Below are positions 1,673 to 7,584 of a stretch of 11,071 nucleotides of DNA, one piece after another. This DNA comes from Candidatus Latescibacterota bacterium. GTDB taxonomy: Bacteria > Latescibacterota > UBA2968 > UBA8231. How positions within the stretch are numbered: position 1 is the first letter of the stretch; each line of letters begins with the position of its first letter. The notes below the pieces were generated by a model that saw nothing but the letters and a program-made list of their open reading frames with translations, was not told the DNA's origin and made no database searches. A program made the position numbers and the translations under genes. The stretch is taken from assembly GCA_021295675.1 (NCBI GenBank), contig JAGWBY010000032.1, forward strand, positions 1 to 11,071. The letters are read 5' to 3'.

Positions 1673-2940
1673 ATGACGCAATCACACCACAGCCCCGAGG
1701 GCCTGCGCGAATCGGCGACCTTTGGCCGCGATGTCATCTACGAGATCCAGCGCGCCGCGCGCACCGGGATTTACGATATCCGCGGCTGGGGGGCCAAGCG
1801 CCAGGTGCCCCATTTTGACGACTTGGTCTTTTTGGGCGCGAGCATGTCGCGCTATCCGCTGGAAGGCTACCGCGAGCGCTGCGACACCGATGTAGTGCTG
1901 GGCACGCGCTACGCCAAAAATCCGATCCACCTCGACATCCCCGTCACCATCGCGGGGATGAGCTTTGGCTCGCTATCGGCGCAGGCCAAAGAGGCGCTCG
2001 GCCGCGGTGCCAGCGAGGTGGGTACGAGTACCACGACTGGCGACGGTGGGATGACGCCGGAGGAGCGCGAACAGTCGCGGATTTTGGTCTATCAGTTGTT
2101 GCCCTCGCGCTACGGCATGAACCCCGACGACCTGCGGTGCTCGGCCAGGGAGCCAAGCCCGGCGGCGGCGGCATGCTGTTGGGCCAGAAGATCAGCGACC
2201 GCGTCGCCCAGATGCGGACTTTGCCCAAGGACATCGACCAGCGCTCGGCCTGCCGCCATCCCGACTGGACCGGCCCGGACGATTTGGCGATCAAAATAGT
2301 CGAGTTGCGCGAGATCACCGACTGGCAGGTGCCGATCTACGTCAAGATCGGCGCGACGCGGACGTATTACGACACGCTCTTGGCGATCAAGGCCGGGGCC
2401 GACGTGGTGGTGCTCGACGGGATGCAGGGCGGCACGGGCGCGACCCAAGATGTGTTCATCGAGCACGTGGGGATTCCGACCCTGCCAGCCGTGCGCCAAG
2501 CGGTGGAAGCACTCGACGAGTTGGATATGCACCGCAAGGTGCAGCTCATTGTGTCTGGCGGCATCCGCAGCGGCGCGGATGTGGCCAAGGCCCTGGCGAT
2601 GGGGGCGGACGCCTGTTCGATTGGCACGCTAGGCGACAACAGCCCGCATTTGGATCCCGAGTACCGCAAAATTGGCTCGGCGGCTGGCTTTTACGACGAC
2701 TTGCAGGACGGTCAAGACCCGGCTGGCATTTCGACCCAGAGCGACACCTTAGCCGAGCGCCTCGACCCCGTAGCTGGAGGCCGCCAGCTTGCCAACTATC
2801 TGCGGGTAATGACCATGGAGTGCCAGACCATTGCCCGCGCCTGCGGCAAATCGCACGTGCACAACCTAGAGCCAGAGGACTTGGCGGCGCTGAATCCCTT
2901 TGGCCGGGACGGATTGGATTCCTGGAAACACGCCAACTAA
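1673..2940 (+). pseudogene. mgsC: N-methylglutamate synthase subunit C, FMN glutamate synthase domain (GlxD-like), frameshifted
   Basis: Homologous to the FMN-binding glutamate synthase domain (GlxD/MgsC), a TIM barrel that performs the synthase chemistry. The first part reads from ATG 1673 and is family-like through AGMSFGSLSAQAKEA, GDGGMTPEER and PSRYGMNPDDLR, ending at about 2137; that frame then degenerates and stops at 2299. The remainder is read one base back, from GTG 2137 to 2940: VLGQGAKPGGGG, QRSACRHPDWTGPDDL, DGMQGGTGATQ, VSGGIRSGADVAKA and HNLEPEDL. Family members have roughly seven to eight residues (of the kind KADAIEVV) between the two halves, so a net loss of 3n+1 bases, about 22, is inferred. 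A second in-frame gap is suspected at about 2627-2631, where IGT is followed directly by LGDN and relatives have AAL(I/V)A in between. If the reading is true, the product is broken in the barrel core; an assembly error is the alternative. Confidence 0.82.
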
Positions 2941-2945
2941 AGGAG
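2941..2945 (+). promoter_or_regulatory. Shine-Dalgarno site deciding the GTG start of the GS-like gene
   Basis: AGGAG lies immediately after the mgsC stop and 6 bases before GTG 2952. The same frame is open back to an ATG at 2820, but that would be inside mgsC; this site and the family-like N-terminus choose GTG 2952. Confidence 0.75.
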
Positions 2946-2951
2946 CTTGCT

Positions 2952-4310
2952 GTGACTGAACGCACTGAGATCAAAGAACGCCTCGCCCAAGAGGGCATTG
3001 AATTCCTACTCGTCCAATTCGTCGATATGACTGGCGCGCCCAAAGTGAAGATGGTGCCGGTGACGGCACTCGACGACGCGCTTGACGAAGGTGCGGGTTT
3101 TGCCGGCGCGTCTATTTGGGGCTTGGGGCAGGGGCCGCACTCGCACGATATGCTGGCGCAGATTGACCTCGATTCGTACGCGCGGCTGTCTTGGCAGCCG
3201 AACACCGTGCGCTTTGCTAGCAATCTCTTCGTCGATGGGGAGTCCTATCCCTATTGTTCGCGCACCAACCTCCAGCGGGTGCTCGCCAACGCCGCGCAAC
3301 AAGGCTATGTCTTCAACGTGGGTATGGAGCCGGAGCACTTTCTTCTCACGCGCAATGACGACGGCTCGATCCGGCCTTGGGACCCGGACGGGGTGGACTC
3401 GCTGGCCAAGCCCTGCTACGACTTCCGCTCCATGTCGCCGGCGATGGCGTACTTGCAGGAGTTGACGCTGTCGCTCAACAGCTTGGGTTGGGGCGTGTAC
3501 CAGTGCGACCACGAGGATGCCAACGGGCAGTTCGAGGTCAACTTTGACTACGCCGACGCGCTGACGACTTCGGACCGCATCATTTTCTTCAAGATGGCCA
3601 CCTCGCAGATCGCCAAGAAATACGGCGCGATCGCCTCGCACATGCCCAAGCCGTTTGCCGACCGCACGGGTAGCGGCTTGCACGCGCACTACCATATCGC
3701 CGACGCCGAGTCGGGCGAGAATCTGTTCTTGGACGAAGGGGATAAGCGGGGTTTGGGTTGTTCAGAGCTGGCCTACCACTTCCTCGGCGGTATTTTGCAC
3801 CACGCGCGCGCGCTGTGCGCGGTTTCCAGCCCGACGGTGAACTGCTACAAGCGCCTGCAACTCGGCGCTGGAATTTATTCGAGCCGTTCGGGTTTTACCT
3901 GGACACCGGCGTTTATCACCTACGGCGACAATAACCGCACGCAAATGATCCGCACGGCCGGCGAGGGGCATTTTGAAGACCGCACGATCAGCGCCGCGGC
4001 TAATCCCTATCTGGCTCTGGCGGCCTATTTGGTCGCCGGGCTCGACGGCATTGAGCGCGGTTTGGAGCCGGGCGAGCCCAATCTGGGCAATATGTACGAA
4101 CGCCCCCTCGACGAGATCCAAGCGGAGGGGATACAGGTTTTGCCGCAGTCGCTGGCCGAGGCGCTCGACGCGCTGCGCGAGGACGAAGTGGTGCAGAGCG
4201 CGCTAGGCCCCATCGCCGACGAGTTCCTCAAGATAAAAGCCGACGAGTGGGCCGAGTACGATGGCCAAGTCAGCCGTTGGGAGATCGACCGGTATTTGAC
4301 GTCTGTTTGA
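2952..4310 (+). CDS. glnT: Type III glutamine synthetase family protein (GlnT), probable gamma-glutamylmethylamide synthetase GmaS
   Basis: The 452-residue protein is a complete glutamine synthetase fold of the GlnT group to which gamma-glutamylmethylamide synthetases also belong. From GTG 2952 the N-terminal beta-grasp domain (about 1-100) shows the FVDMTGAPKVKMVPV strand. The catalytic domain carries the metal and glutamate ligands: GMEPEHF (E126, E128), HEDANGQFE (E188, E195), GSGLHAH (H244, H246), YGDNNRTQMIR (around 325-334), and ANPYLALAAYLVAGLDGI near 350-367. GS proper makes glutamine from glutamate, ammonia and ATP; GmaS uses methylamine and makes gamma-glutamylmethylamide. Sequence alone does not separate them; I favour GmaS because the gene stands between mgsABC and sox/mgd genes, as in NMG pathway loci. 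It starts 11 bp after mgsC with a good ribosome site and is undamaged, unlike mgsC. The DNA turns AT-rich right after its stop. Confidence 0.88.
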   Translation: MTERTEIKERLAQEGIEFLLVQFVDMTGAPKVKMVPVTALDDALDEGAGFAGASIWGLGQGPHSHDMLAQIDLDSYARLSWQPNTVRFASNLFVDGESYPYCSRTNLQRVLANAAQQGYVFNVGMEPEHFLLTRNDDGSIRPWDPDGVDSLAKPCYDFRSMSPAMAYLQELTLSLNSLGWGVYQCDHEDANGQFEVNFDYADALTTSDRIIFFKMATSQIAKKYGAIASHMPKPFADRTGSGLHAHYHIADAESGENLFLDEGDKRGLGCSELAYHFLGGILHHARALCAVSSPTVNCYKRLQLGAGIYSSRSGFTWTPAFITYGDNNRTQMIRTAGEGHFEDRTISAAANPYLALAAYLVAGLDGIERGLEPGEPNLGNMYERPLDEIQAEGIQVLPQSLAEALDALREDEVVQSALGPIADEFLKIKADEWAEYDGQVSRWEIDRYLTSV

Positions 4311-4379
4311 GTTTGATGTACGCCCACATTTTGAGCAAGTTATATTGCTATTTCGACGAAAAATCGTTATCATTGAGAA
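4311..4379 (+). other. AT-rich spacer at the junction of the catabolic operon and the defence-like pair
   Basis: This 69-bp gap is markedly more AT-rich than the genes to its left and marks where the pathway genes stop and the ATPase/RloB pair begins. It could hold a separate promoter for the pair, but I find no -35/-10 pair with proper spacing (a TTGAGC at 4331 and a TATATT at 4341 are only 4 bp apart). No strong terminator hairpin is visible, so readthrough from the operon is possible. Confidence 0.4.
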
Positions 4380-5591
4380 ATGATTCATACATTTTCCGTA
4401 TCCAACTACTACTCAGTCCGCGAGGAAGTAGTTCTCGATCTCCGCATTTTAGGCACTGCTCCCGCCCTGCCACGCTTTCGGCGCAGTACGGCCAAGCCGG
4501 ATATCCGGCTCCCCTCTGTCGTCGTGTTCATGGGACCCAATGGATCGGGCAAGACGACCCTGCTGGATGCGCTGCTGGCTATCTCCCGCATCGCCTCATC
4601 CGCATCTCCTGCTGAAGAGACCAGCCCGCTCACCTTTCTCCCTTTCTCTTCGACGGAAACCAGAGACAAACCGACGCGGTTTTGCGTGGAGATAGAAGCG
4701 GATTGGCTGGCACCGGATCAAGCCCGGCACCTGTTCCGCTACGAAGTGGCCGTGAGACGCGGTGACGCCGGCGTCAAGGATACCTTCTTCCAGCGCGAAG
4801 TGCTGTCCTACTTTCCCAAGGGGCGCCCCCGCCGCCTTTTCGAGCGCGGTGCTCCAGGAGAGCCTATATACGTTTCCAGTGAGCTAGGGCTCACTCCGAA
4901 GGATGACCGCCTCAAGGCGATTCGGGAGGACGCCTCGGTGATTGCCACGCTCGCCCTGCTCAATGTGCCTTTGGCGGCGCGTATTGCAGAATGGATGCGC
5001 GCTTTTTCTTATTTCTCCAACATCCTTCACCGCGAGAAATGGCAGCTTCCAACCCAAACAATGGTAGAAGCATTCGACGAGAGTGCTCCCGAGGTGAGAG
5101 ATTGGCTCGTGAGACACATCCAGGCCAGCGACTTGGGGATTCAAGACATGCGTATTTTGGAGCAAGCCGACAAGAAGGAGGTGTTTTTCGACCATCGCGG
5201 GATCGACAGGCCGATTCCTTTGCCCTTCGAGTCCAATGGCACGAAACGGTTGTTCCATCTGCTACCTCAGCTCTACCTCGCCCTCAACGACGGCATTCCC
5301 GCGGTCCTCGACGAGGTCGACGGTGATCTTCACGTGGATATCGCCGGCGAAATGCTCGACTGGTTCCGCTCCCAAGAGACCAATTCTTCCGGCGCACAGC
5401 TTTTCGTCTCCTCTCACAATGTCGGCCTGCTCGACGATCTGGAGAAGGAAGAGGTCTTCATCGTCGAGAAGGACCGCGATGGCGCGACCCGCGTGTACAG
5501 TGCCCAAGATGTGCGCGGTCTCCGCCGCGACGCCCGTCTCTATCCCAAGTACCGGGCGGGGGTGCTCGGTGGTATCCCGAAAATCGGCTGA
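4380..5591 (+). CDS. AAA/ABC-type ATPase, RloA/AbiLi-like (COG1106 group)
   Basis: A 403-residue SMC/ABC-like ATPase of the AAA_15/AAA_21 type. It opens with the typical first strands of this group (IHTFSVSNYYSVREEVVLDL). Nucleotide-binding motifs are all present: Walker A GPNGSGKTT (52-60), an ABC-signature-like ESNGTKRLF (284-292), Walker B ending AVLDEVD with D311 and E312, and an H-loop VSSHN with H346. The long insert between Walker A and the signature is the usual variable region. There is no transmembrane segment. The start at ATG 4380 fits the family although the ribosome site is weak. Six bases separate it from the RloB-like gene, so the two are co-translated. Known families with this pairing (AbiLi-AbiLii, RloA-RloB; PARIS AriA-AriB by analogy) act in phage defence, where the ATPase senses and holds a toxic TOPRIM partner. 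That role here is inference. Confidence 0.82.
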   Translation: MIHTFSVSNYYSVREEVVLDLRILGTAPALPRFRRSTAKPDIRLPSVVVFMGPNGSGKTTLLDALLAISRIASSASPAEETSPLTFLPFSSTETRDKPTRFCVEIEADWLAPDQARHLFRYEVAVRRGDAGVKDTFFQREVLSYFPKGRPRRLFERGAPGEPIYVSSELGLTPKDDRLKAIREDASVIATLALLNVPLAARIAEWMRAFSYFSNILHREKWQLPTQTMVEAFDESAPEVRDWLVRHIQASDLGIQDMRILEQADKKEVFFDHRGIDRPIPLPFESNGTKRLFHLLPQLYLALNDGIPAVLDEVDGDLHVDIAGEMLDWFRSQETNSSGAQLFVSSHNVGLLDDLEKEEVFIVEKDRDGATRVYSAQDVRGLRRDARLYPKYRAGVLGGIPKIG

Positions 5592-5597
5592 AGAGCG

Positions 5598-6137
5598 ATG
5601 CGCCGCAGGTCGGTCGAACCTAGGCGAGTCATTTTCATCGGGGTTGAGGGCAAGAGCGACCAAGCATTCGTACGGTTCCTCGGCCGCTTTTGCGAAGAAG
5701 CAGGTCTGCACCTGCATCTGGATGTGAGACCGGGGAGCGGCGGTGACTCTGTAGCCGTTGTCGAGGAAGCTGCCCGCCACTTGAGACATTCCGGCAAGAG
5801 CAATATCCGCAACAGGCTGGTGTTGTTGGACCGAGACCGCATTAAGCAAGACCTGCAGGCCGAACGCGACGCCCAAACGGTAGCATCCAGAGCGAAGCTG
5901 GAGATCATTTTTCAGGAGCCGAACCTAGAAGGGCTGCTGATCAGGCTGCATCAAGGACAAGAGAATCGAAAAATTGCGGCAGACAAAGCGATGGCGGAGC
6001 TTAGAAAGGTTTGGCCCGAGTATAGCAAGCAACTGACGGCGGACCAGTTGATTCAGCGTTTCGCTTTATCTGATGTGCAGCGGGCGGCCCAGCACGATAG
6101 TGAGTTGCAAAGGCTTCTTACCGTTATCGGTCTTTGA
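5598..6137 (+). CDS. RloB-like TOPRIM-fold protein, putative toxic nuclease partner of the ATPase
   Basis: This 179-residue protein fits the RloB/AbiLii group. The visible TOPRIM-like acidic pattern is VIFIGVEGKSDQAF with Glu17, followed by GSGGDS (46-51) and LVLLDRDR with Asp78 and Asp80. The region EIIFQEPNLEGLLIRLH (102-117) corresponds to the family's conserved segment that in relatives reads like SNPCFEYWLLLH; here the Cys and the aromatic residues are replaced, so it is a divergent member. It is a little shorter than the roughly 200 residues I expect. In the known pairs this subunit is the RNA- or DNA-cleaving effector and the upstream ATPase controls it. It is intact and 6 bp from the ATPase gene. 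A DUF4435/AriB or OLD-type TOPRIM identity is less likely given the small size and lack of a fused ATPase. Confidence 0.75.
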   Translation: MRRRSVEPRRVIFIGVEGKSDQAFVRFLGRFCEEAGLHLHLDVRPGSGGDSVAVVEEAARHLRHSGKSNIRNRLVLLDRDRIKQDLQAERDAQTVASRAKLEIIFQEPNLEGLLIRLHQGQENRKIAADKAMAELRKVWPEYSKQLTADQLIQRFALSDVQRAAQHDSELQRLLTVIGL

Positions 6138-6141
6138 TTTT

Positions 6142-6156
6142 TCTCGTTCTACGAGA
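6142..6156 (+). promoter_or_regulatory. Small hairpin overlapping the soxB ribosome binding site
   Basis: TCTCGT (6142-6147) and ACGAGA (6151-6156) pair perfectly around a TCT loop, just after the rloB-like stop. The 3' arm overlaps GAGAGGA (6153-6159), the only Shine-Dalgarno candidate before ATG 6174, which is also at a rather long spacing of 14 bases. The stem could dampen soxB translation. It lacks a following T-run and so does not look like a terminator. The stem is short and may be fortuitous. Confidence 0.35.
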
Positions 6157-6173
6157 GGATAGTCTCCCCCGTC

Positions 6174-7396
6174 ATGCCCTACCGGTTGCTCAAATACGGT
6201 TTCGCGAACAAGTACTCCGAGCCGCGCATGTTCCGCTCGCCCGAGCGGTTGCGCGACCAGTATGAGGTGGTCATCATCGGCGGCGGTGGCCACGGGCTGG
6301 CCACGGCGCACTATCTCGCCCACGAGCACGGCATCAGCGATGTGGCCGTGCTAGAGCAGCGCTACATCGGCCACGGCGGCACTGGCCGCAACACGGCGAT
6401 CATCCGCTCGAATTATCTGACGGAAGAGGGCGCGCGCTTTTACCAGTTCAGCGTGGATCTGTACCGCGATTTGGCGCGGAAACTCGACTACAACCCTTCA
6501 CCTTGGCGCACACGCCAGCCGCGCTGCGCACCCAGCGCTGGCGCGCCGAGGTCAACAAGCACCTCGGCATCGATTCCGAGGTCGTCGGCCCGGCGTTCAT
6601 CAAGAAGACCATCCCCGAGATCGACCTGAACTGTGGCGGGCACCAGCCGCCCATCGTCGGCGCGCTCTACCACCCGCCGGGGGCCATTGCCCGCCACGAC
6701 GCCGTGGCGTGGGCTTATGCGCGCGGGGCCGACAGCAAAGGCGTTGAAATCCACCAGCAGACCAGCGTCACCGACATTGAAATCGCGGACGGACGGATCG
6801 CGGGCGTACACACGGATCGCGGTTTTATCCAGACGCGCAAGGTGCTCAGCGCGGTGGCGGGCTGGACGCCGCAGATACAGCGGATGGTCGGCTTGCGCTC
6901 GCCGCTGGTGGTGCATCCGCTGCAGGCGTTTGTCACCGAGCCGTTCAAGCCGTGGCTCGACGCGATTGTCGTATCGGCCAGCTTGCACACGTACGTTAGC
7001 CAATCTTCGCGCGGTGAGTTGGTCGCTGGCGCGTCTTTGGATCCCTACGAGTTGACGTCCATGCGCTCGACCCTCGACTTTGCCGAGGGCTTGGCCGGCC
7101 ACATGCTCGACCTCTTTCCCTGCTTGGCCGACGTCAAGGTGCTGCGCCAGTGGGCTGGGTTGTGCGACATGACCCCGGACTTTTCGCCGATCATGGGCAC
7201 GACGCCGATTGCGGGCTTTTACATCGACGCGGGCTGGGGCACTTGGGGCTTTAAGGCCTCGCCGGTCTGCGGTTACACTATGGCTCATACCATCGCCCAC
7301 GACGAGAATCATCCGCTGATCCGCGCTTTTAATCTGTCGCGCTTTGATGCGTTTGAGTTGGTCGGGGAGAAGGGAGCGGCGTCCGTTGGCCACTGA
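6174..7396 (+). pseudogene. soxB: N-methylglutamate dehydrogenase / sarcosine oxidase beta subunit (SoxB, MgdA), frameshifted
   Basis: Encodes the flavin-bearing beta subunit of the heterotetrameric sarcosine oxidase family. The first part from ATG 6174 shows the FAD dinucleotide fold VVIIGGGGHGLATAHYLA (33-49) and GHGGTGRNTAIIRSNYLTEEGA, ending at LDYN near 6494; that frame then turns to nonsense and stops at 6629. The rest is read one base back, from about 6497 to 7396: TLAHTPAALR, WRAEVNKHLG, a PPGAIARHDAVAW segment whose His (codon 6695-6697) aligns by my recollection with the histidine that carries covalent FMN, and a C-terminal GWGTWGFKASPVCG. Relatives have about nine residues (like VMFSQRGHL) where only 5 bases remain, implying a loss near 22 bp. 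With mgs and GS genes nearby I read it as mgdA, oxidising N-methylglutamate. Unless the break is an assembly error, no full-length product is made. Confidence 0.82.
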
Positions 7397-7436: not shown

Positions 7437-7584
7437 AACTGACGTTACGCAAAGGCCATTAGGTATGGGATGCTTCGCTCCGCTCAGCATGACAAGGAAG
7501 GAACACGCTAGAGGCTGTCATGCTGAGCGGAGCGAAGCGGAGTCGAAGCATCTAATACCTAGGTGCCCGTGCGTAACGTCAGTT
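7437..7584. repeat. 148-bp palindromic MITE-like repeat, copy 1
   Basis: The element is bounded by perfect 15-bp inverted ends, AACTGACGTTACGCA at 7437-7451 and its complement at 7570-7584. Inside, a long imperfect hairpin forms: GCTCAGCATGACA (7482-7494) pairs with TGTCATGCTGAGC (7516-7528) around a 21-base loop, and the outer parts (GGTATGGGATGCTTCG against CGAAGCATCTAATACC) also pair. The right arm carries about 9 extra bases relative to the left arm. It has no coding capacity. It sits between soxB and soxD. A CTT flanks it on both sides, a possible 3-bp target duplication but too short to trust. A second copy lies at 10790-10937. MITE is the best fit; a REP/BIME-type structural repeat is the alternative. 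Confidence 0.85.

Follow-up and report, generated by a model that had tools for sequence, protein, structure and literature searches.

The closest described systems to the gene pair considered here are AbiL (AbiLi/AbiLii) of Lactococcus lactis and RloA-RloB of Campylobacter, which likewise consist of two genes encoding an ATPase and an RloB-type Toprim protein. AbiL was described as a two-gene phage-resistance system in 1999 (reference in PMC3985639), and the passages of the literature at hand name neither the target of its RloB effector nor the control of the system. In the excerpts of PMC3985639, AbiLii of Fusobacterium nucleatum inhibits growth of Escherichia coli and is not neutralised by its own AbiLi, and AbiLii of L. 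lactis, called a Toprim toxic effector in a passage of PMC10440598, is without toxicity in E. coli. The same passage of PMC10440598 presents D44:D29 of Clostridium algidicarnis, a TOPRIM_OLD/AAA toxin-antitoxin system in which the RloB-homologous toxin D44 was tested with the AAA protein D29 in toxicity-neutralization assays. The logic of an ABC ATPase guard joined to a Toprim nuclease is shared by PARIS (AriA-AriB), where AriA sequesters the Toprim tRNase AriB (excerpt of PMC12409363). Here we describe a pair of this general design in an 11,071-nucleotide stretch of DNA from a Candidatus Latescibacterota bacterium (contig JAGWBY010000032.1; hereafter, the window), in which the genes for an ABC ATPase and an RloB-like protein lie between gmaS and soxB of an N-methylglutamate pathway operon.

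We consider it likely that the two genes form a compact, self-contained unit of the AbiL (RloA-RloB) kind, a toxin-antitoxin or abortive-infection cassette that has come to lie between gmaS and soxB. Judged from its sequence, the pair is best read as a divergent branch of that kind, comprising an ATPase guard and a toxic nuclease. The PADLOC AbiLi profile PDLC02335 matches the ATPase at 3e-59, whilst the AbiLii profile PDLC02337 matches the small protein weakly, at 7.9e-5, and is matched by 26 of 43 aligned rows of that protein at E <= 0.01. The AbiLi-like ATPase gene lies directly 5' of the AbiLii/RloB-like gene, which is the AbiL gene order and bears out the architecture that an earlier note on this DNA had proposed. 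Placement of the small protein near RloB held, but its score against the RloB profile (PF13707) is 24.3 bits, under the curated cut-off of 31.5; the profile is matched by 25 of the 43 rows at E <= 0.01, an E limit and not the curated cut-off. Foldseek with the predicted model of the RloB-like protein gave no match under E 0.001, and a solved-structure profile search returned just three chance-like matches (E 0.5-0.7).

Canonical RloB proteins carry an NP-x-F-E-x-W segment. Besides scoring below the Pfam cut-off, the window protein departs from AbiL and RloA-RloB in having PNLEG in its place, within a QEPNLEG segment that is conserved across the branch (P108 in 42, N109 in 41, and E111 and G112 in all of the 43 rows) and is a signature of the whole branch and not of the window copy. 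The earlier note had seen a possible new subtype in this divergence; the window copy is not unusual, and the subtype is the PNLEG branch as a whole. A further difference is the fixed arrangement of repeat, promoter and ATG in the window branch, which was not found described for AbiL or RloA-RloB in the literature passages available.

Other known systems are less close. The PADLOC AriA profile PDLC02980 matches the ATPase at 1.8e-22, a match that is unspecific because Pfam AAA_21 matches the very same residues over an equal length. AriB of PARIS is a DUF4435-type protein, whereas a Pfam profile search found no DUF4435 match in the pair up to E 0.1. The PtuA ATPases of Septu and of retrons Ec78/Ec83 have an HNH nuclease partner, in contrast to the Toprim-like partner here. 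Profiles of the PADLOC candidate system HEC-01 match both proteins (HEC-01A the ATPase, best 7.7e-19; HEC-01B the small protein, marginally, 0.015), in each case more weakly than AbiLi/AbiLii. As for D44:D29, the likeness is drawn from its description, and it differs or may differ from the pair in host, regulation and phage phenotype.

The genes themselves are as the earlier note had described them: two intact frames on the same strand, 6 bases apart (Table 1), the first encoding a complete set of ATPase motifs. These are Walker A GPNGSGKT (52-59), the signature ESNGT (284-288), Walker B VLDE (309-312) and H346; G52, G57, K58, S285, G287, T288, D311 and H346 are invariant in 44 aligned rows including the window, and position 312 is glutamate in 35 of them. 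In the RloB-like protein, E17 and D78-x-D80 are invariant in all 43 aligned rows, again including the window, which matches what a Toprim catalytic centre would need.

Table 1. Features of the window that bear on the ATPase/RloB-like pair
Feature	Position	Strand	Basis or remark
Promoter-like region TTGCTA-17-TATCAT; -10 ends 6 bases 5' of ATPase ATG	4345..4373	+	consensus match
Operator-like inverted repeat GACGAAAAATCGTTA at -25..-11	4355..4369	+	conservation across loci
SMC/Rad50-like ABC ATPase (AAA_21; AbiLi-like), proposed sensor/antitoxin	4380..5591	+	403 aa, ATG to stop open
RloB-like Toprim protein, proposed toxic nuclease effector	5598..6137	+	179 aa, ATG to stop open
Whole insert, gmaS stop to soxB ATG (about 1.86 kb)	4311..6173	+	3-24 bases here in 6 relatives
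Frame holding gmaS, left host operon gene; true start probably inside frame	2820..4310	+	
soxB-like gene, right host operon gene, two frames in window	6174..7396	+	

In the mechanism that we envisage, the ATPase, with its SMC-like head and probably as a multimer, would hold the Toprim protein inactive until a phage product alters the ATPase and RloB is released; freed RloB would then cleave a nucleic acid that the cell cannot do without (perhaps tRNA, the target of AriB in PARIS) and bring growth to a halt. Transcription would begin at or beside the ATPase ATG, and the inverted repeat would be the site at which the cassette represses itself, perhaps via the ATPase, a role suggested by the retention of the repeat in most loci lacking RloB. 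It is from sequence that we infer defence, toxicity and autorepression of the cassette. A bolder proposal, which we put forward tentatively, is that this branch of RloB-type systems works as a minimal ~1.9-kb mobile element lacking a transposase, in which the ATPase would act at the same time as sensor, as antitoxin and, by binding a 14-base inverted repeat within a leaderless promoter, as autorepressor. If that is true, such an element could insert in the direction of transcription of metabolic operons and move among phyla living in the same habitat. The kind of defence system is already known; what deserves attention is the conserved switch and the apparent travel between phyla. The strictly placed repeat, the natural deletions of the effector and the cross-phylum copies offer handles on what binds the repeat, on whether the ATPase alone is harmless and on the target of RloB.

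The pair is an insert in the N-methylglutamate operon. Profile matches (soxD excepted) and alignment to two related loci from Latescibacterota genomes, L001 and L002, give the gene order mgsA-mgsB-mgsC-gmaS-[pair]-soxB-soxD-soxA, in agreement with the position between gmaS and soxB that the earlier note had assigned, and L001 and L002 carry the pair in identical order, position and orientation. Occupancy was assessed with GmaS in 25 genomes of the family to which G001 (the genome containing L001) belongs. GmaS matched in 20, at >= 82% identity in nine, as one 113-residue piece at 96%, and at 42-53% in ten that were left out of the site comparison. Among the ten genomes with a close GmaS, two are occupied (G001, G002), six are empty, with 3-24 bases from the gmaS stop to the soxB ATG (L046, L047, L048, L050, L051, L052), and two are undecided at contig ends (L063, cut inside gmaS; L049, ending ~100 bases past gmaS). 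The empty sites support the earlier claim of an insertion. The ATPase was found in just 2 of the 25 family genomes, and the pair is not fixed at the site together with the pathway.

No gene other than the pair is present between gmaS and soxB; the insert has no transposase of its own, as a transposon would have, and no repeat of >= 10 bases linking the two insert borders, as a target duplication or terminal repeat, was reported. The flank tree is a star in which the three occupied rows as one clade give p-AU 0.030 with soxB and 0.083 without it, and it settles neither for nor against a clean history of a single insertion. As a separate observation, L049 (1-108) bears a CCCTTCGACAGGCTCAGGGTG-type repeat after gmaS, where soxB would begin, and the contig stops there; the gmaS-soxB intergenic site may hence accept other insertions.

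We turn to how the cassette may be expressed. A promoter consensus scan found 2 sites against a mean of 0.9 in shuffles, which is not significant alone. The stretch just 5' of the ATPase is similar in the window and 18 loci. For a set anchored on the start codon we used 42 rows, namely the window and 41 of 43 loci (L029 and L043 were out, the gene start being missing or unmatched), and 29 representatives below 80% ATPase identity. A strict RACR-N6-YGTT repeat stands exactly at -25 in 32 of the 42 rows and 21 of the 29 representatives, and a relaxed form in 36 and 24, respectively; the rows without even the relaxed repeat (L031, L033, L037, L038, L040, L042) have 23-45% ATPase identity. Information content averages 0.09 bit per column at -120 to -45 and rises to as much as 1.31 in the half-sites and in TAnnAT (-12..-7). 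Among 985 control frames from the same loci, the strict repeat occurs at -25 in one and anywhere in 100 bases in 13. The fixed-position control favours the operator reading; the position-free one is the safer, because control starts are longest-frame starts and many are not true starts.

Only 6 bases separate the end of the -10 box from the ATG; we infer a leaderless start from this, and the arrangement suggests that the ATPase transcript is leaderless and self-regulated. The earlier note had thought that the pair might use the promoter of the operon; instead, the cassette brings with it a conserved promoter/operator-like region and is probably independent of the host operon's promoter. This suggests how a defence cassette can occupy a catabolic operon without relying on the promoter of that operon. 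No terminator-like site was found on the + strand in the gaps and the genes are co-oriented, so the host operon could still read through to soxB.

Strict repeats at -25 are kept in 9 of the 11 loci in which RloB is lost or broken (L001, L005, L012, L013, the first copy in L016, L022, L024, L030 and L066) and are absent from L038 and L040, whose kin L037 has RloB and also lacks the repeat. If the cassette is self-regulated, this retention makes the ATPase, and not RloB, the likelier partner of the repeat. Plasmid homologs give a further view: in 11 sampled from 96 plasmid records with an ATPase match, the repeat occurs upstream, with a leader, in strict form in three and in relaxed form in six, against a background in the same plasmid loci of 0.011 (strict) and 0.063 (relaxed) per 110-base stretch, and three homologs at 24-26% ATPase identity are without it. 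The plasmid repeats lend moderate support, because in several of them GAC is part of a -35 box, and recent losses of RloB would give the same retention of the repeat.

A rather unlikely alternative, which keeps the same toxin-antitoxin or defence pair, is that the repeat is bound by a widespread host regulator and that expression tracks host stress and not self-repression. Profile scans of both proteins found no recognisable DNA-binding domain encoded by the cassette, and the repeat overlaps the core promoter, both of which speak for such a regulator. On the other hand, the exact repeat-TAnnAT-ATG pattern has one match in G001 and one in G032, each at the cassette, and none elsewhere in the four genomes searched; G002 and G030 have no match, the pattern being too strict for their own cassettes. 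There is thus no visible regulon of the exact form, looser forms lying outside that search, and the hosts span several phyla by title, which also speaks against a shared host regulator.

A self-contained cassette with a toxic effector receives support from the asymmetry with which its genes are lost. In 41 genomes chosen by their ATPase, a sample biased to intact ATPases in which a divergent RloB could be missed, an RloB match (E 1e-8) was found in 37, each adjoining the ATPase by coordinates, and none in four (G004, G005, G048, G061). Damaged RloB genes occur in several: only a short remnant is left in G001, the frame is split or interrupted in G037 and G038, G063 has a truncated gene, and in G053 an insertion breaks it. 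The remnant, in L001, arose by an in-frame internal deletion that left 36 codons, at the same operon site. Second ATPases occur in G041, as a copy without RloB, and in G064, as a copy 33% identical. Among 64 genomes of the phylum the ATPase is present in nine (one a C-terminal fragment, G094), with RloB intact in five, a remnant in one and absent in three; no match to RloB without the ATPase was found in these genomes at E 1e-8. Loss of the effector while the guard stays, and not the reverse, is the pattern expected of a toxin with a harmless guard, in numbers that are small. Two loci add detail of their own: L016 (10001-16616) has two ATPase copies ~3.7 kb apart with RloB only after the second, and in L030 (11213-11950) the RloB frame has grown to 245 codons through an inserted stretch of ~160 bases.

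It is improbable that the window pair is a decaying, inactive remnant of such a cassette. Short deletions interrupt the window frames of mgsC, soxB and soxA, and RloB has been lost in related genomes, as decay would have it; in the window, however, neither gene is broken, the promoter-like region and catalytic residues are likewise intact, and the deletions in the neighbours may be errors of assembly.

Close copies of the cassette also occur far from this operon. Those in L006 (titled Gammaproteobacteria) and L030 (titled Vicinamibacterales) match at 90.8% over 1605 bases and 92.3% over 495 bases, from ~250 bases before the ATPase to ~55 bases after RloB, with no further match between the 21-kb loci at E 1e-3; RpoB, our yardstick of host distance, is 55-57% identical between the two genomes in the longest pieces that aligned and 42-44% in the N-terminal ones. 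The ATPase tree requires 13 changes of phylum label against a minimum of 6, an excess that alone is no proof of transfer; labels follow the titles that submitters gave, and the genome collection assigns L008 (titled Gemmatimonadota) to the phylum of G001. At the window site, four-fold-site divergence is 0.047-0.062 for the ATPase, about a quarter to a third of the 0.17-0.25 for mgsA, gmaS and later soxB. Values are low, too, in the final 60 codons of gmaS (0.04-0.08, from only 24-26 sites), and the pattern is not clear for RloB (0.147). The low values indicate that the ATPase, at least, spread after the host lineages split or was exchanged at the site, two readings between which the flank tree does not decide.

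The idea of the earlier note that the location ties defence expression to methylamine metabolism did not survive comparison, for the pair lies inside an N-methylglutamate operon only in L001 and L002 of the 43 loci and elsewhere in the others; scanned neighbours (10 proteins from 6 loci; two of these proteins have no Pfam match) show unrelated contexts, and the operon persists in close relatives that lack the pair. One of the other sites is before sdhAB: 18 bases after the cassette in L009 (10001-14465) begin co-oriented genes for the flavoprotein of a succinate dehydrogenase/fumarate reductase and for its iron-sulfur partner. The downstream DNA of L009 recurs, after a somewhat longer gap, in L007 and L017 (titled Nitrospira), and this Nitrospirales site is a second case of the cassette before core metabolic genes. 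Plasmid pairs lie near NACHT, CHAT, WYL or toxin-antitoxin genes; the copies in L097, L098 and L081, near NACHT, CHAT or WYL genes, may belong to a defence island. A phage-borne cassette found no support, a viral-contig scan (with a single ATPase query, reaching close relatives only) being empty; in a phage collection 7 records match at E 1e-5, all at < 35% identity.

Least credible of all is recruitment of the pair to housekeeping or to the N-methylglutamate pathway, in regulation or RNA turnover, in place of defence: it would agree with the common site and orientation in the window and two genomes and with a dN/dS below 1 in the pair, but most pathway-bearing relatives lack the pair, RloB has been deleted at the very same site in L001, homologs occur in unrelated contexts and on plasmids, and dN/dS is 0.2-0.4 in the pair, the ATPase included, against 0.04-0.07 in mgsA, gmaS and soxB (mgsB and soxA were left out).

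The hosts of the cassette may share a habitat. Sponge symbionts are reported to be rich in toxin-antitoxin genes (passages of PMC5649159 and PMC8163846), and a table in PMC5649159 lists L017 (MPMZ) and L027 (MPMR) as bins from the sponge Aplysina aerophoba. Two cassette hosts are verified sponge symbionts, and more sponge hosts are likely. Further loci are presumably sponge-derived, judging by the style of their record names.

Some minor features of the window remain. Compared with L001 and L002 it has gaps of 22, 15, 26, 22 and 17 bases at 2135, 2628, 2893, 6495 and 10576, and an additional 3-base gap at 970. Four of the five have lengths not divisible by three and break the frames of mgsC, soxB and soxA, leaving the pair untouched; they may reflect real decay or assembly error. 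Finally, a short repeat at 7515-7548 and 10868-10900 matches L028 (4334-4367) at 94-97% over 33-34 bases, its copy at 7515-7548 lying in a soxB-soxD stretch that is largely missing from L001 and partly from L002.
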